From: a virus
Direction: 5' to 3' (one strand)
Virus record (IMG/VR): IMGVR_UViG_3300038701_001289
Location: 1 to 54,328 of that record
DNA length: 54,328 bases
Part shown: positions 47,984 to 53,681 of the stretch, one piece after another
Numbering within the stretch: position 1 is the stretch's first letter
Layout: every line of letters starts with the position of its first letter
The notes under the pieces: generated by a model
Seen by the model: only the letters and a program-made list of their open reading frames with translations
Database searches by the model: none
What the model was told of the DNA's origin: nothing
Made by a program: the position numbers and the translations under genes

Positions 47984-48005
47984 TAACGCTGAAATACCAA
48001 GAAAT

Positions 48006-48036
48006 AAGGGCGGTTCTCAGTAGCCGCCCTTTTTTG
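48006..48036 (+). terminator. Rho-independent terminator
   Basis: AAGGGCGG pairs with CCGCCCTT followed by TTTTTT. Confidence 0.9.
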
Positions 48037-48128
48037 TTACAAAAACTATTGCAAAACGTGATCGTCGGATATACAACTATATCTACCGGTCGTCCCCAAC
48101 CTCCGGTGTTCCGATGCGCGGAACGTAT

Positions 48129-48176
48129 ATGACCCTGCGCCCTTCCGTTTTTCCGCAAAAACTGGCGCAGGGTCAT
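48129..48176 (+). ncRNA. Long stem-loop of unknown role
   Basis: ATGACCCTGCGCC (48129-48141) pairs perfectly with GGCGCAGGGTCAT (48164-48176). Inside it GTTTTT (48147-48152) pairs with AAAAAC (48157-48162) around CCGC. No U run follows. Confidence 0.5.
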
Positions 48177-48240
48177 TGCATTTCTAAGGTCCAGAAATAC
48201 CCTATTGCGTACTTAGACATTTTCGGTCTAAGCTACTCTT

Positions 48241-48393
48241 ATGGAAACGATCCTTGCCATATTGTTACCGTTTCTGACGGTCTTGAGCTTGGCGCACCGG
48301 GCGCGAACTAGAATTGCCGTGGTGCTACTGGCCTCTGGCGGGCGTCGTTTCCTGTTTCTCTCCCTGTTCCAGAAGCCGCACTCGCCGCGCTGA
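48241..48393 (+). CDS. Doubtful small hydrophobic ORF, 50 aa
   Basis: Reads METILAILLPFLTVLSLAHR, then a second hydrophobic stretch (IAVVLLASGG, FLFLSLF). No clear ribosome binding site. Two-span hydrophobic micro-proteins occur as phage membrane effectors, but this could be chance. Confidence 0.25.
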   Translation: METILAILLPFLTVLSLAHRARTRIAVVLLASGGRRFLFLSLFQKPHSPR

Positions 48394-48399
48394 ACAACA
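48372..48399 (+). repeat. 28-bp direct repeat, copy 2
   Basis: Exact copy of 47840-47867. In the frame used by the Ala-rich gene it would read EAALAALNN here too, then end after HELPLPDD, so it may be the decayed end of a related gene. Confidence 0.85.
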
Positions 48400-48470
48400 G
48401 GCATGAGCTGCCTTTGCCAGATGATTAGCGAAGGTAATTATTCCTCCCCCTCGAAATCAAAGTAAAACTT

Positions 48471-48507
48471 GGATGGGTTGTCGTGCGGCACCCATCCTTT
48501 TCTTTTT
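48471..48507 (+). terminator. Rho-independent terminator
   Basis: GGATGGGT (48471-48478) pairs with ACCCATCC (48490-48497), followed by TTTTCTTTTT. Confidence 0.85.
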
Positions 48508-48557
48508 AGGACAGTAAATGGATATTTAAGCTGCGTAGATGGTAGTTCGTTATATCC

Positions 48558-48586
48558 TTGACACCAGATCAATATGCTCATAGGTT
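48558..48586 (+). promoter_or_regulatory. Possible promoter of a small RNA
   Basis: Perfect TTGACA, 17-bp spacer, TAGGTT (weak -10). Confidence 0.4.
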
Positions 48587-48592
48587 TTGAAT

Positions 48593-48657
48593 GCGAAAGG
48601 TTGAACCTAGTTCGATCAAAGACGCGGGGTAGCCTTGATTGGTTGTCCCGCGTTTTT
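48593..48657 (+). ncRNA. Candidate small RNA, about 65 nt
   Basis: Between the TTGACA promoter and a terminator-type hairpin with no ORF. Contains a short AGGTT/AACCT hairpin before the terminator. Confidence 0.35.
48622..48657 (+). terminator. Rho-independent terminator
   Basis: ACGCGGG pairs with CCCGCGT, with inner AGCC/GGTT pairs, followed by TTTTT. Confidence 0.75.
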
Positions 48658-48660
48658 GCG

Positions 48661-48689
48661 TTTATATAACAGTTTCACTTCTATATAAT
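48661..48689 (+). promoter_or_regulatory. Promoter of the AAA+ ATPase unit
   Basis: TTTATA, 17-bp spacer, perfect TATAAT. The predicted start point falls on the repeat copy at 48696. Confidence 0.7.
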
Positions 48690-48695
48690 ATGCGT

Positions 48696-48709
48696 TACAA
48701 TCGACTATA
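48696..48709 (+). repeat. Dispersed repeat copy 21
   Basis: TACAATCGACTATAGCGG, 6 bases after the -10 box: operator-like position. Confidence 0.9.
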
Positions 48710-48755
48710 GCGGAAAAACGGATGCAGAATACTCTCTGCCTACATGAGGAACCCC

Positions 48756-50453
48756 ATGGATACCGAAACAACACTATCTGCCAGTGAACGGCTGGCACAA
48801 GAGTTGACCATTGCAACGGATGCATCAATCGGCGTGATTGCGGTTCGTTGCCCCGAGACTGAGGTCTACCGCGTCGTGGATGAAATCTACTCCATCGCGC
48901 AATCCCAGATGATCGACTTCATGTTGCATAGCTCGGAAACGGGTTGGTGCACCTACACGAACATTGATCCCGAGGACACCAACGCACCGCCGTTCGACGC
49001 ACTCAACCCCAAGGAAACCGACCGTTCTAGCATTCCGCTAGGCGCGGCCTTCGAAAAGCTGTACGGCGCGTCAGTACCGAACAACGGTTTCTTCGTGATG
49101 CTGGACACGTACTTCACCTTTGGCGAGATGCAAACGCAAACTAGCATCCGAAAGCAGGCCCAACGGTCTCTGTCGAACGAACAGCGGCTGTTCCTTATCG
49201 TACCAAACCATGTGGAGATACCGGAAGCCGTATCGCCTCTGGTGCATGTGGTCGAATACGGGTTTCCCACGAGGGAAGAGCTTCAAGCGTCCCTTGAAGA
49301 CATTCTCGAAAGCATCGAAGACGACACGCGGCCAGAACTTAGCAACGACGAGGTCAATACGTTGGTATCGAATGGGCAGGGCATGACACTTGCCTCGTTC
49401 GAGGCGGCGTGTGCGTTGTCGATCACCAAGCATGGTGTGCTTCACGGCGACTACGATGACTTCGGTTTCAGTCAGATCAGGGAAACCATACGCGAATACA
49501 AGACGCAACTGCTTCGCAAGACGAACGTGCTTGAACTGCAACCCAACGTTCCTGAGAACGAAATCGGCGGTCTCGACCTTTTCAAGGAATGGATGCACCA
49601 GCGCAAGTCCACGTACACGGACGCCGCCAAGGAAATGCACGTAACACCGTCTCGCGGCGGTCTGGTTGTAGGCCCGCCCGGTACTGGTAAATCCCTTGTG
49701 GCGAAAGCTGCGGGTTCCATCCTTGGGTTGCCTGTCGTGCGGTTCGACGTTGGCCGGGTCTTCGGTCAATACATGGGGCAATCGGAACAAGCGATGCGCC
49801 TTGCGTTGACCATGATCGATGCCATGGCCCCGTGCGTTCTGATGCTTGACGAAATCGACAAGGGTTTCTCTGGAACAACCGGCGGAAGCAATGACAGCGG
49901 CACAACCATGCGGGTGTTTGGCACGTTCCTTACGTGGATGCAGGAACGCGACCAGATCGACAGGCCGGTGTTCTTGATCCTTACAGCTAACCGTGTCGCC
50001 GGGTTGCCGCCGGAACTGTTGCGCAAAGGCCGTATCGACGAAATATGGTCGGTGAACGTGCCGAACGAGGAAGAACGCGAGGCCATCATCAAAATCCACC
50101 TGAAAAAACGTGGCGTATCCCTGAATAACGGCGACATCAAGGGAGTGGTCCGTATATCTGACAAGCTCGTCGGCGCGGAAATCGAAGCCATGATTGAGGA
50201 TGCCCTTGTACTATCCTTGTCGCACAGCGACGGCTTCTGTTTCGAGGTTATCGAACAAGCACGAGGATACCTCAATCCGATGTCCGAAACGCGGGCGGAT
50301 GAATTCGACGCCATGAAATCTTGGGCAAAGGACAACGCTCGTGCGGCGAGTACCGAGAAGAACGCTGCGCGTACCGCTACCGACAGGACGCCAGCCAAAG
50401 GTAAGCGTCCCCGTGCCAAGGTTAAGGTTACGCGACCGGCTCGTGACAAATGA
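48756..50453 (+). CDS. Ycf46-like AAA+ ATPase, 565 aa
   Basis: Start ATG 48756 after GAGGAA. The N-terminal 260 residues carry a Ycf46-type pattern (FMLHSSETGWCTYTNID; RLFLIVPNHVEIPEAVSPLV). The AAA+ core begins near 268 (NEIGGLDLFKEWM), with Walker A VVGPPGTGKS (Lys312), Walker B VLMLDEIDKG, sensor FLILTANRV and arginine-finger region LLRKGRIDE, then the small helical lid. The C-terminal tail is Lys/Arg/Ala-rich. It probably remodels a protein or DNA complex. The presence of DUF1257 and DUF2997 genes downstream identifies a known but functionally unassigned module. Confidence 0.85.
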   Translation: MDTETTLSASERLAQELTIATDASIGVIAVRCPETEVYRVVDEIYSIAQSQMIDFMLHSSETGWCTYTNIDPEDTNAPPFDALNPKETDRSSIPLGAAFEKLYGASVPNNGFFVMLDTYFTFGEMQTQTSIRKQAQRSLSNEQRLFLIVPNHVEIPEAVSPLVHVVEYGFPTREELQASLEDILESIEDDTRPELSNDEVNTLVSNGQGMTLASFEAACALSITKHGVLHGDYDDFGFSQIRETIREYKTQLLRKTNVLELQPNVPENEIGGLDLFKEWMHQRKSTYTDAAKEMHVTPSRGGLVVGPPGTGKSLVAKAAGSILGLPVVRFDVGRVFGQYMGQSEQAMRLALTMIDAMAPCVLMLDEIDKGFSGTTGGSNDSGTTMRVFGTFLTWMQERDQIDRPVFLILTANRVAGLPPELLRKGRIDEIWSVNVPNEEEREAIIKIHLKKRGVSLNNGDIKGVVRISDKLVGAEIEAMIEDALVLSLSHSDGFCFEVIEQARGYLNPMSETRADEFDAMKSWAKDNARAASTEKNAARTATDRTPAKGKRPRAKVKVTRPARDK

Positions 50454-50456
50454 GCT

Positions 50457-50470
50457 TACAATCGATTGCA
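50457..50470 (+). repeat. Dispersed repeat copy 22
   Basis: TACAATCGATTGCAGCGC, 3 bases after the ATPase stop and 28 bases before the next promoter. Confidence 0.88.
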
Positions 50471-50498
50471 GCGCGGCGCATGGTCCAGTAATTGCGAC

Positions 50499-50527
50499 TT
50501 TAACGACAAGGTGCGCCGTGCTACATT
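50499..50527 (+). promoter_or_regulatory. Sigma70-like promoter
   Basis: TTTAAC, 17-bp spacer ending GTGC (extended -10), TACATT. Confidence 0.5.
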
Positions 50528-50571
50528 ATCGGTTCAATAAACAACAACTCTAGCTACAGGAGGGTCTAGCT

Positions 50572-51240
50572 TTGTGGATCGAACTAACTACTGGTAAAGA
50601 CTCTTTCCGTGCCTTGAATGCATCCCCTCGTCGCAACGTGTCGGTGGCGACCTTCGTAAGGGTCAATGACGATGGTGCAGGACGGAAGGTGGTTCCTCTA
50701 TTCGCGGCGTACCAACGCAAGCTTGCAGAATTCCGCGAGACTTCGTTGGTTTCCACAATCCCGGCCACGTCCAACTTTGATCCCAATATCGCTGGACAGT
50801 GGTTTGTGAACCGTCACGAGGTTATGCCGGGAACGGAAATTCTCATCGAACATCGCCGCCGTGAAACCACGGGCTTTGGTGAGAGGATTGAATACCTCAT
50901 GATCAAGGCCGACGATCACGCTTCTTTGTGGCGTACCACCATTGAACTTCCACGTCACGAGCTTTCGGCAGTATCGTGCGTTCATATGACAGGCCGCTAC
51001 CAGATCATCGACAAGGACGAACAACTTAGCGACGAAGCCGCAGACGTTTGGAGGGATTACCTATCTATCCCAGAAGATTACCACGTCTCTGACTACCTTG
51101 ATCCCAACCAAGACGAGCAGTTTTACTACCATACGGAAATGGAGAAAGCGGAACGTCGCACCGAGCGGGTCGAGGTCAGCACTGTAGGCGGCAGGCGCAG
51201 GGTGAAAATCAGGCGCAGCAGAAAGATCAAAACCCGCTAA
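50572..51240 (+). CDS. Unknown protein in the AAA/DUF1257 module, 222 aa, TTG start
   Basis: AGGAGGG at 50559-50565 sits 6 bases before TTG 50572 in frame, which decides the unusual start. The nearby GTG 50574 is out of frame. The middle is beta-rich (GTEILIEHRRRETTGFG, YLMIKADDHASLWRT); the C-terminus is basic. No family is recognised. It lies between the ATPase and DUF1257 genes and may belong to the same system. Confidence 0.65.
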   Translation: MWIELTTGKDSFRALNASPRRNVSVATFVRVNDDGAGRKVVPLFAAYQRKLAEFRETSLVSTIPATSNFDPNIAGQWFVNRHEVMPGTEILIEHRRRETTGFGERIEYLMIKADDHASLWRTTIELPRHELSAVSCVHMTGRYQIIDKDEQLSDEAADVWRDYLSIPEDYHVSDYLDPNQDEQFYYHTEMEKAERRTERVEVSTVGGRRRVKIRRSRKIKTR

Positions 51241-51257
51241 GAACAGTCGCAAGCTTA

Positions 51258-51286
51258 TTGCGTTGCAGTAGGTCGGCGTCTATACT
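51258..51286 (+). promoter_or_regulatory. Sigma70-like promoter for DUF1257
   Basis: TTGCGT, 17-bp spacer, TATACT. A short hairpin CGCAA/TTGCG overlaps the -35. Confidence 0.65.
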
Positions 51287-51317
51287 CAAATAACTAATCA
51301 ACCGAAAGGTAGCCCCA

Positions 51318-51713
51318 ATGTCTCACAATATCACTCTCTCGGGTGTTAAGATCAACGATCTTGCCCTTCTGCGCAATGTCGTCAACGACATGGGCGGCGG
51401 TAAGGCCGTTCTTGATACCGACGCCAAGAACTTCCGCACGTGGCGCGGCCAGTCCACCCACTGCGATGCTGCAATCAAGATGCCCGGTGCACATGACATC
51501 GGCCTTCGTCGTTCCAATGACGGCTCTTACGAGGTTGTCTACGATCCCTACGCCATGGACAGCCTGTTCGCCACCACCGGCACCACCAACGTGATCGGCG
51601 GTCTTTTGCAGGAATACGCCCTGCGCGAGGCGGAAATCAAAGCAGCCCAGAACGGTATGACCACTTCGCGTCAGTACCGCGACGGCGGCATGATCACCCT
51701 CGCAATCGAATAG
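51318..51713 (+). CDS. DUF1257 (Ycf35-like) protein, 131 aa
   Basis: Matches the DUF1257 layout: start MSHNITLSGVKINDLALLRN, middle DAAIKMPGAHDIGLRRSNDG, SYEVVYDPY, GLLQEYALREAEIKAAQNG and a closing strand DGGMITLAIE. The family is found in plastids, cyanobacteria and phages. Its function is unknown but it co-occurs with Ycf46-type ATPases and DUF2997. It has its own promoter, AAAGG before the ATG, and moderately GC-optimised codons. Confidence 0.78.
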   Translation: MSHNITLSGVKINDLALLRNVVNDMGGGKAVLDTDAKNFRTWRGQSTHCDAAIKMPGAHDIGLRRSNDGSYEVVYDPYAMDSLFATTGTTNVIGGLLQEYALREAEIKAAQNGMTTSRQYRDGGMITLAIE

Positions 51714-51727
51714 GCCGGGTAACCCGC

Positions 51728-51741
51728 TACAATCGATTGCA
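51728..51741 (+). repeat. Dispersed repeat copy 23
   Basis: TACAATCGATTGCAACGG; its tail overlaps the first bases of the tRNA gene. Confidence 0.9.
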
Positions 51742-51743
51742 AC

Positions 51744-51819
51744 GGGCCTGTAGCTCAACGGTTAGAGCAGAGCGCTCATAACGCTTTGGTTGGGGGTTCA
51801 AATCCCTCCGGGCCTACCA
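51744..51819 (+). tRNA. tRNA with CAU anticodon (Met or lysidine-Ile)
   Basis: Cloverleaf fits: acceptor GGGCCTG/CGGGCCT with G1-U72 and one inner U-G, D arm GCTC/GAGC, anticodon stem GAGCG/CGCTT with loop CTCATAA, five-base variable loop, T arm GGGGG-TTCAAAT-CCCTC, discriminator A and encoded CCA. The G-U at the top of the acceptor stem and lack of three GC pairs in the anticodon stem argue against initiator tRNA. Elongator Met or Ile2 remain open. Confidence 0.92.
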
Positions 51820-51839
51820 TCATCAACACAAGAGGCGTC

Positions 51840-52037
51840 ATGCTCAAATCATTTGTTTCTCAGTACGCACCCGGTGAATGGGTTTACGTTGCTGACGACA
51901 TCAAAGGGTACATCGTAAGAGTGTCCTTTACCGTTGGACGGGATTTCCCTAAATACACTGTGGAGTGGTTCAACAACGGTACTTTGGAGCAAGGCGATTT
52001 CTTCCCAGATCAAATCAAAGGAAAAGCAAATGGCTAA
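51840..52037 (+). CDS. Hypothetical protein, 65 aa
   Basis: ATG 51840 (MLKSFVSQYAPGEWVYVAD) after AAGAGGCG, 20 bases behind the tRNA. Beta-rich small barrel pattern (GYIVRVSFTVGRDFPKYTVE) reminiscent of SH3/KOW-like folds. Overlaps DUF2997, so probably co-translated with it. Confidence 0.6.
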   Translation: MLKSFVSQYAPGEWVYVADDIKGYIVRVSFTVGRDFPKYTVEWFNNGTLEQGDFFPDQIKGKANG

Positions 52038-52221
52038 CAAGAAAGTGCTTATGCACGTGAACGCAAACGGCGTTGCGAAGATCGAAGCGCAAGGCTACGA
52101 GGGCGGCACCTGCATGGATGCCACCGCACCGTTCGAGAACATGTTCGGCAAGGTCGAACAGGAACGGGTCATGACCGGCGAATGCGGTACGAACCCGAAC
52201 ATGGGCGAACGGGTGCGGTAA
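52030..52221 (+). CDS. DUF2997 protein, 63 aa
   Basis: Fits the short DUF2997 plan: strand KKVLMHVNANGVAKIEAQG, then YEGGTCMDATAPFENMFGKV with the conserved G-x-x-C-x-x-A-T, and an ERVMTGECGTN tail. In cyanobacteria and other phages this gene lies beside DUF1257 and a Ycf46-type ATPase. The Cys may be functional. Eight-base overlap upstream and TAATG overlap downstream. Confidence 0.75.
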   Translation: MANKKVLMHVNANGVAKIEAQGYEGGTCMDATAPFENMFGKVEQERVMTGECGTNPNMGERVR

Positions 52222-52506: not shown

Positions 52507-53037
52507 ATGACCTACCCGAAACCCAACGCAGTGCAGATCACAGCCGCACGTGCTGTTTTGCGCCAATTCTTCCGTGAAGGCGGGGCGACCGCGACTGACA
52601 GTGCAACGGACATCGCTCTATTCTCTATCTTCTCCTGCATGACCGGCGTTGGCCGTGCTGCGGCGCAGTATGCCGGAAGCGTGGCACAAGCCACCGACAA
52701 CGAAGTCACCGTGCCTCCGTCGATTGTCGAAACCGAAGACGGCGGTTACGAGGTCGTGGCCGAAAACGTTCTTGGCATCCCTGTCGGAACCGTGTTCCGC
52801 GAACCCGAACCTGTCTCGGACGTCATGTCGCTCAACGAGCTTCGCGGCATGAACAAGAACGATCTTGTTGCCTGTGTCCGGTATGAGACCGGGCTGGATA
52901 TTACTGCCGAATACGGCAGCAAGGCGAAGATCATCGAAAGCCTCGAACACTGGCGTTCGACCGGAGAGTTCCCCGATCTGGATGCCGCCGCCGACGAAGA
53001 CAACGAGGGCGGCAACGATACCGTCAGCGGCGACTAA
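52507..53037 (+). CDS. Hypothetical protein, 176 aa
   Basis: ATG 52507 (MTYPKPNAVQITAARAVLRQ) after AAAGG. N-terminal helices, a central acidic strand region (VPPSIVETEDGGYEVVAEN), and a short SAP-like helix pair near 120-160 (LRGMNKNDLVACVRYETGLD, KAKIIESLEHW) that could bind DNA. Acidic C-terminus. Its stop is followed at once by the structured RNA candidate. Confidence 0.6.
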   Translation: MTYPKPNAVQITAARAVLRQFFREGGATATDSATDIALFSIFSCMTGVGRAAAQYAGSVAQATDNEVTVPPSIVETEDGGYEVVAENVLGIPVGTVFREPEPVSDVMSLNELRGMNKNDLVACVRYETGLDITAEYGSKAKIIESLEHWRSTGEFPDLDAAADEDNEGGNDTVSGD

Positions 53038-53040
53038 CCA

Positions 53041-53275
53041 ATTGCCGGGGCCTTTGTTGGCGAGGGGTATTCGTTTTAGGTTTAAGGGTTGGTCCCTGTT
53101 CCTTATGACGTGCTACCGAATGCGCCACATTCACCGCCCCTTGCCTACTAAGGCCCCGGCACACGAGGTATGCGCGCTCTACTCTGGGGCAACTGACGGG
53201 GGACGCGCATACAGGGACCAGTGTTGAAGACTAGCGCATCTGCCGACCCTGTGCTTGGCTCCACTGGTCCCCACC
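53041..53275 (+). ncRNA. Candidate structured RNA with switch-like pairing
   Basis: No ORF. P1 GCCGGGGCCT (53044-53053)/AGGCCCCGGC (53151-53160); P2 GGCGAGGGG (53059-53067)/CCCCTTGCC (53137-53145); P3 ATTCG (53069-53073)/CGAAT (53117-53121); P4 GTATGCGCG (53168-53176)/CGCGCATAC (53204-53212); P5 GGGACCAGTG (53214-53223)/CACTGGTCCC (53262-53271). GGTCCCTG (53091-53098) can instead pair with CAGGGACC (53212-53219), either as a pseudoknot or as a competitor of P5. No known class is recognised. Confidence 0.6.
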
Positions 53276-53281
53276 TACAAC

Positions 53282-53310
53282 TTCATAACCCCTGTTAATC
53301 GTGCTACAAT
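53282..53310 (+). promoter_or_regulatory. Promoter overlapping a repeat
   Basis: TTCATA, 17-bp spacer ending TGC, TACAAT. The -10 is the first six bases of repeat copy 24. Confidence 0.45.
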
Positions 53311-53318
53311 CGATTATA
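53305..53318 (+). repeat. Dispersed repeat copy 24
   Basis: TACAATCGATTATAGCAC, 19 bases before the next gene. Confidence 0.9.
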
Positions 53319-53336
53319 GCACAGGAGCACCATCAC

Positions 53337-53681
53337 ATGCCTAGCCAAAAACACGTTGTGAGCTTTTTCCCTGACGGCAGCGTCGAACATACCAGATCAG
53401 CGGATATGGACGCCGTATTCGGGACCGGCGGTGAGATGAAGCGCGTTACGGACATCGGCAGGCGCGAAGAGGGTTACTTCATCAACTGGTTGCTTGGACC
53501 CTTCGCGGGTAGGGAACACACATGGGGTATGTCTATCGGCTACGGGATCGTTTCCTACGCCCTACACCCCGTAGAGTGCACAATGTATTTTCCAACATAT
53601 GAAGCAGCGGTTCTTCATGAGGTGAAAATGCTCAACGCCATGCGTTGCCAAGGAGTACGCTTCAATGGCAAGACCGCCTAA
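53337..53681 (+). CDS. Hypothetical protein, 114 aa
   Basis: ATG 53337 (MPSQKHVVSFFPDGSVEHT) with AGGAG ten bases upstream; an earlier in-frame start would translate the repeat. Beta-rich first half, aromatic middle (FINWLLGPFAGREHTWGM). No family is recognised. It follows the RNA candidate and overlaps the next gene by 17 bases. Confidence 0.62.
   Translation: MPSQKHVVSFFPDGSVEHTRSADMDAVFGTGGEMKRVTDIGRREEGYFINWLLGPFAGREHTWGMSIGYGIVSYALHPVECTMYFPTYEAAVLHEVKMLNAMRCQGVRFNGKTA

Follow-up and report, generated by a model that had tools for sequence, protein, structure and literature searches.

A 54,328-base virus record, IMGVR_UViG_3300038701_001289 (hereafter the window), contains an evolutionarily conserved structure at positions 53043-53271, best read as a + strand RNA. 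Its main stem, P1, keeps its shape in distant viruses though nearly every letter has changed, indicating a real RNA element, which is absent from Rfam. The conserved part consists of the P1 stem, its two mismatches and a branched interior. The existence of the element is well supported, and its function we infer.

The gap and its genomic setting

The window is a siphovirus-like genome with genes on one strand. By protein, its nearest described relatives are Rhodobacter RcF-cluster phages (terminase 72%, AAA-ATPase 44%) and Agrobacterium phage JP1. The preliminary description, made from the sequence of the window, had placed a candidate structured RNA in a 299-base gap. The gap is exactly 299 nt (53038-53336), bounded by a stop codon at 53035-53037 and an ATG at 53337. 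It lies at the boundary between AAA-ATPase/DUF1257/DUF2997 genes and replication genes, with an O-like initiator, DnaB and Pol I downstream. The features of the region are:

52507-53037, + strand: upstream gene, 176 aa, no known family
53043-53068, + strand: P1 5' strand, in the MFE and centroid folds; conserved architecture, covariation
53069-53135, + strand: P1 interior, 67 nt, with tentative P1a (53083-53088/53100-53105) and P1b (53118-53122/53128-53132)
53090-53099, + strand: loop strand UGGUCCCUGU, 10 bp complementary to 53211-53220; not conserved
53136-53161, + strand: P1 3' strand, in the MFE and centroid folds; covariation
53168-53212, + strand: P2 hairpin, 53168-53176 with 53204-53212, 9 bp, in the MFE/centroid folds
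53214-53271, + strand: P3 hairpin, 53214-53223 with 53262-53271, 10 bp, in the MFE/centroid folds; terminator-like stem
53282-53310, + strand: promoter-like TTCATA-17-TACAAT with extended -10; consensus match only
53305-53318, no strand: palindrome copy TACAATCGATTGCA, a genome-wide repeat
53337-53681, + strand: downstream gene encoding 114 aa, weakly similar to phrog_38408 (unknown function)

The region folds strongly. The + strand of 53041-53275 reaches -111.6 kcal/mol, compared to -87.0 +/- 5.0 for 200 dinucleotide shuffles (z -4.9), none of which is as stable. The - strand gives a z of -3.3. A 180-nt sliding scan along the + strand of the 54-kb window places the top-structured spot at 53041. 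As the preliminary description held, the gap contains perfect or near-perfect helices, at 53043-53067/53137-53161, 53168-53176/53204-53212 and 53214-53223/53262-53271.

P1 is a 26-position stem with two U·U mismatches. Its 5' strand contains 12 basal pairs, mismatch U53055, two pairs (53056-53057), mismatch U53058 and 10 apical pairs (53059-53068). In the 3' strand, the 10 apical pairs (53136-53145) are followed by mismatch U53146, two pairs, mismatch U53149 and the 12 basal pairs (53150-53161). Among 1500 gap shuffles, one matches the strength of this helix and none its mismatch pattern. The 67-nt interior is probably branched into P1a and P1b, an assignment that is tentative in the window, as the covariation that supports it comes from the Rhizobium pair only (see below).

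A promoter-like element and then a repeat (53305) follow the structure, as had been described. A promoter-like/palindrome element is located between the RNA and the gene in four lineages, and thus the RNA need not be the leader of the downstream gene. The repeat is a 14-bp near-palindrome found at 23 places in the window, at intervals of 1-5 kb, both within genes and between them (places include 8, 4508, 9405, 19736, 34880, 50457, 51728, 53305 and 54287). It produces 50 matches on both strands, compared to 0.9 expected. Palindromes are also present in RcMenchie (52 copies of TGCAATCGATTGCA), JP1 (37 of the TTGCAAACGTTTGCAA type) and L338C (27 of the TTGCAACNNGTTGCAA type), with about 0-1 matches for the reversed-pattern controls in these three. 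We read them as a lineage-specific dispersed site system, operator- or centromere-like. A scan for the palindrome returned 83 stretches, none of them from an additional carrier of the gene cluster. The AAA-ATPase, DUF1257 and DUF2997-like proteins are encoded at 48744-52221 of the window, and the same grouping occurs in other phages. A tRNA-Met (CAT) gene at 51744-51819 is located just 3' of the DUF1257 gene, directly behind a palindrome copy.

Conservation of the P1 stem in five lineages

A stem of the same architecture is found at the same place in four other lineages: the RcF Rhodobacter phages, the Rhizobium phages L338C and RHph_I4, and two IMG/VR contigs. The corresponding gap is 346 nt long in RcMenchie and three RcF siblings (z -5.7). 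Its z is -6.4 in IMG/VR contig 3300038682_000198 (L008) and -3.6 in 3300035181_000829 (L015). The Rhizobium phages L338C/P11VFA and RHph_I4 are more distant, with z of -4.2 and -5.7. In all five lineages the element is intercistronic between genes on one strand, and is located directly 5' of the phrog_38408-like family.

Across all carriers P1 encloses an interior of 59-118 nt. The helix has 24-26 positions in the window, RcF and L008, 23 in the Rhizobium phages and at least 21 in L015. Outward from the interior, 10 pairs (11 in L015) are followed by a mismatch, two pairs, a second mismatch and 6-12 more pairs. The first mismatch is U·U or C·U, with a G-C pair in RcF only; the second is U·U, C·C or A·C and never paired. 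The never-paired column is open in 6/6 sequences, the other one in 5/6. The Rhizobium stems contain a third mismatch two pairs further outward.

The arms of P1 are unrelated in sequence across lineages. A 5' arm can pair at 17-19 of 20 positions with the 3' arm of the same phage, and at 6-12 of 20 with 3' arms from other lineages. The covariance analysis of homologous gaps called for in the preliminary description showed that the helix is kept by compensation, with both-sided changes in all 18 compared pairs. Overall, 92.5% of the P1 cells are paired, compared to 58 +/- 4% after shuffling (0/500 shuffles reach this value) and 31-59% in slid registers, a covariation score that is somewhat inflated because the arms were picked for complementarity. 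For the same reason, the number guarding against selection is the descriptor test, in which the P1 descriptor was found in 6/6 gaps and 0/9000 dinucleotide-shuffled gaps. When at least 17 Watson-Crick pairs are required, it hardly occurs outside this slot in all the phage loci examined.

The Rhizobium pair (~73% identity) extends this pattern into the interior. The 6-bp P1b stem directly under P1 reads AAACCC/GGGUUU in one phage and CUCCAG/CUGGAG in the other, yet its 9-nt loop UUCCUCGUG is the same in both. P1a is likewise rewritten, and P1 carries two further compensatory changes. In the leading hairpin the GNRA tetraloop is kept (GCAA to GCGA), and a cUUCGg tetraloop occupies the corresponding place in L008. 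Among the four RcF phages the gap differs at 0-3 of 346 nt, compared to 2-12% at the fourfold sites of the next gene, and all three differences fall outside the predicted stems; the DUF1257/DUF2997 neighbors are also near-identical in RcF, so mosaic exchange partly confounds this sign of constraint.

Three other candidates were discarded. A tRNA-like reading of the - strand near 53110-53140 was rejected because it resembles the phage's own tRNA-Met no better than expected by chance. A short CGUGCUA-centered motif, picked out by eye in the window, RcF and L002, was dropped as it may be due to chance. Pairing of the Rhizobium loop UUCCUC with the downstream ribosome-binding site, also seen by eye, fails to transfer to other lineages.

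The structure could in principle act as DNA where the replication module begins, as an origin, a cruciform or a protein-binding inverted repeat, and not be used as RNA. The downstream neighbors (O-like initiator, DnaB, Pol I) are compatible with this, and P1 alone folds equally well from either strand and does not discriminate between them. However, P2 and P3 fold better on the + strand in 4/4 lineages, P1 includes G-U pairs, and the GC skew of RcMenchie does not turn at the site. The GNRA and UUCG loops are meaningful on the + strand only, which is the gene strand, and this argues for RNA. We consider a DNA-level element quite unlikely.

P1 is absent from the same slot in L002 and L017, which have one or two hairpins instead, and in L012 and L021, which have plain terminators. 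It is also absent in JP1, Aeromonas HJ05 and Pseudomonas SM1, where the gaps are short. Close relatives thus live without P1, indicating that it is dispensable. Such relatives fit the idea that the structure consists of unremarkable hairpins of the kind found between genes (terminators or spacers), which are long by chance. This is very unlikely, as the mismatch architecture and the loop conservation are not expected for terminators and the U run is missing. In L015 (2380-4899) and L017 (7001-9523) the AAA-ATPase carries an in-frame insertion at the P-loop whose matches to the intein-splicing and HNH models of Pfam are weak, below the curated cut-offs; these insertions are probable inteins.

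Scans with the neighboring proteins recovered no further P1-bearing lineages in IMG/VR or in bacterial genomes, and a sequence search with the gap found no match among phages or plasmids. A conserved RNA almost free of sequence constraint is hard to find by sequence search. This one was recovered only via gene order and a structural descriptor, suggesting that more such phage RNAs have been missed.

P2, P3 and the alternative pairing

Downstream of P1, a hairpin in the P2 position is also found in L003, L008 and L015. A counterpart of P3 forms the final hairpin 5' of the palindrome in L002, L003, L008, L015 and L017 too. P3 does not have the makings of an intrinsic terminator: it is followed by CACCTACAAC, which contains no U run, and the terminator scan gave no call.

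The central proposal of the preliminary description was a choice between mutually exclusive pairings, as in a switch or a pseudoknotted RNA. The downstream 10-bp pairing, 53214-53223 with 53262-53271, is present. The pairing with the upstream loop also exists, but measures 10 bp (53090-53099/53211-53220) and not the 8 bp claimed. It is marginally beyond chance, reached in ~1% of shuffles (99th percentile 9, maximum 12 Watson-Crick pairs). Complementarity between the interior and downstream regions is at chance level in L003, L008 and L015, where a conserved pseudoknot was sought and none was found, and the Rhizobium version contains no P2 or P3 at all. Since the alternative pairing is not conserved in other lineages and no U run follows P3, the choice between pairings is not a conserved property of the element. 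A riboswitch or attenuator is expected to have a conserved exclusive pairing tied to a terminator or ribosome-binding site, and we found none here. Two strong pairings of 10 bp each do exist in the window, yet a promoter-like element intervenes before the gene. A switch in which 53211-53223 picks the P1 loop or the P3 strand and so controls the next gene is therefore highly improbable.

The preliminary description is thus partly supported. The switch is unsupported, whereas a structured RNA unlike the named classes is borne out by covariation in five lineages and by the Rfam search, in which no family reaches the gathering threshold over the gap.

Possible functions and relation to known systems

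In Rfam 15, only the tRNA at 51744 reaches the gathering threshold in the window. Within the gap, the highest-scoring matches below threshold are to unrelated microRNA models and lie far under the cut-off, and the relatives' gaps match no family. ARAGORN and Rfam found no tRNA or tmRNA in the gap. The paper describing the RcF phages does not mention noncoding or intergenic elements (PMC8601537). The element appears to be a new RNA family, although in kind it may belong with the intercistronic processing elements of phages, as a variant of them.

RNase III acts on dsRNA with a characteristic geometry of 22 bp and a 2-nt stagger. P1 is a dsRNA helix of about two turns, as looked for in an RNase III signal. 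Its geometry, in which two turns are interrupted near the middle by defects with two pairs between them, points to a protein that binds dsRNA as a dimer, with host RNase III as the most plausible candidate. We tentatively favor a cis-acting intercistronic RNA within a long + strand transcript. The two-turn P1 would have the length bound by host RNase III, and the defects two base pairs apart would correspond to the cutting stagger. Binding or cutting at P1 would separate the upstream and replication-gene messages and set new mRNA ends, a role for RNase III as between the T7 early genes. The branched interior might be freed as a small stable RNA, and P2 and P3 may shield the upstream message at its 3' end or fix where that end lies.

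An alphaproteobacterial RNase III, that of Sinorhizobium meliloti, cuts T7 R1.1 in vitro, a hairpin with an internal loop between genes 1.0 and 1.1 (PMC6121014). Like R1.1 and other T7 early-gene RNase III signals, P1 is a phage intercistronic stem, and the R1.1 helix is also centrally defective. However, R1.1 is a hairpin, whereas P1 encloses a branched interior of 59-118 nt. P1 is interrupted by a pair of symmetric 1x1 mismatches whose spacing is fixed, R1.1 by one asymmetric 4/5 loop. In bacterial pre-16S and pre-23S rRNA, a long stem closes a folded body and RNase III cuts it free. The P1 stem around a folded body resembles these closing stems, but its interior is ~60-120 nt with no rRNA similarity.

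To our knowledge, a branched interior of 60-120 nt and a fixed pair of mismatches are not required by RNase III, so a different partner may bind P1. Mismatches in the middle of a helix can also block RNase III cleavage. P1 could mark an undescribed class of phage RNA that is defined by its geometry, a helix whose two mismatches are 2 bp apart and separated from a branched body by 10 bp. Such an RNA would recruit a phage or host protein dedicated to it, and would either govern the change to expression of the replication genes or work in trans during infection. We consider this somewhat unlikely.

The strongest rival to RNase III processing in cis is a trans-acting phage RNA, in which the P1-closed body is a small RNA or protein decoy that binds a host or phage protein via the two-mismatch helix and the conserved loops. 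The stable closed fold, the conserved 9-nt loop on a freely rewritten stem and the near-invariant 346 nt in RcF phages are consistent with this, as is a promoter-like TTGACC-18-TAGGTT that overlaps the RcMenchie leading hairpin (a consensus match only). However, the element has no conserved promoter or terminator of its own, and its location is fixed just 5' of one gene family, like cis elements. We regard a trans-acting role as unlikely. GOLLD and ROOL, whose structures have been described (PMC12286853), are likewise structured noncoding phage RNAs with function not known, but are much larger, and the element here has no Rfam match.

Processive antitermination, in which the nascent RNA alters RNA polymerase so that terminators are read through, was also considered. 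HK022 put and Bacillus EAR are antitermination RNAs with tandem hairpins in phage and bacterial leaders. The element resembles them in its tandem hairpins, and lies as a multi-hairpin RNA at a module boundary between long same-strand phage operons, with terminator-like hairpins close by. Neither sequence nor size matches. The known sequence signatures and an Rfam match are absent, and the element sits at the end of the upstream transcript, not at its start. A put-like or EAR-like role has very little probability. The cultured carriers (the Rhodobacter RcF cluster, Rhizobium L338C and RHph_I4) make expression, processing and deletion of the element directly testable in laboratory hosts.

Other gaps are also structured. 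The 760-nt gap before the AAA-ATPase gene (window 47984-48743) is strongly structured, and its 330-nt RcF counterpart differs at 0-1 positions, compared to up to 16% at fourfold sites of the AAA gene. This gap is possibly a second RNA element. RHph_I4 (L168:2063-2284) and L338C (L169:2072-2283) have a highly structured gap of ~215 nt just 3' of the AAA-ATPase gene, with a common UCGUGGUUC stretch.
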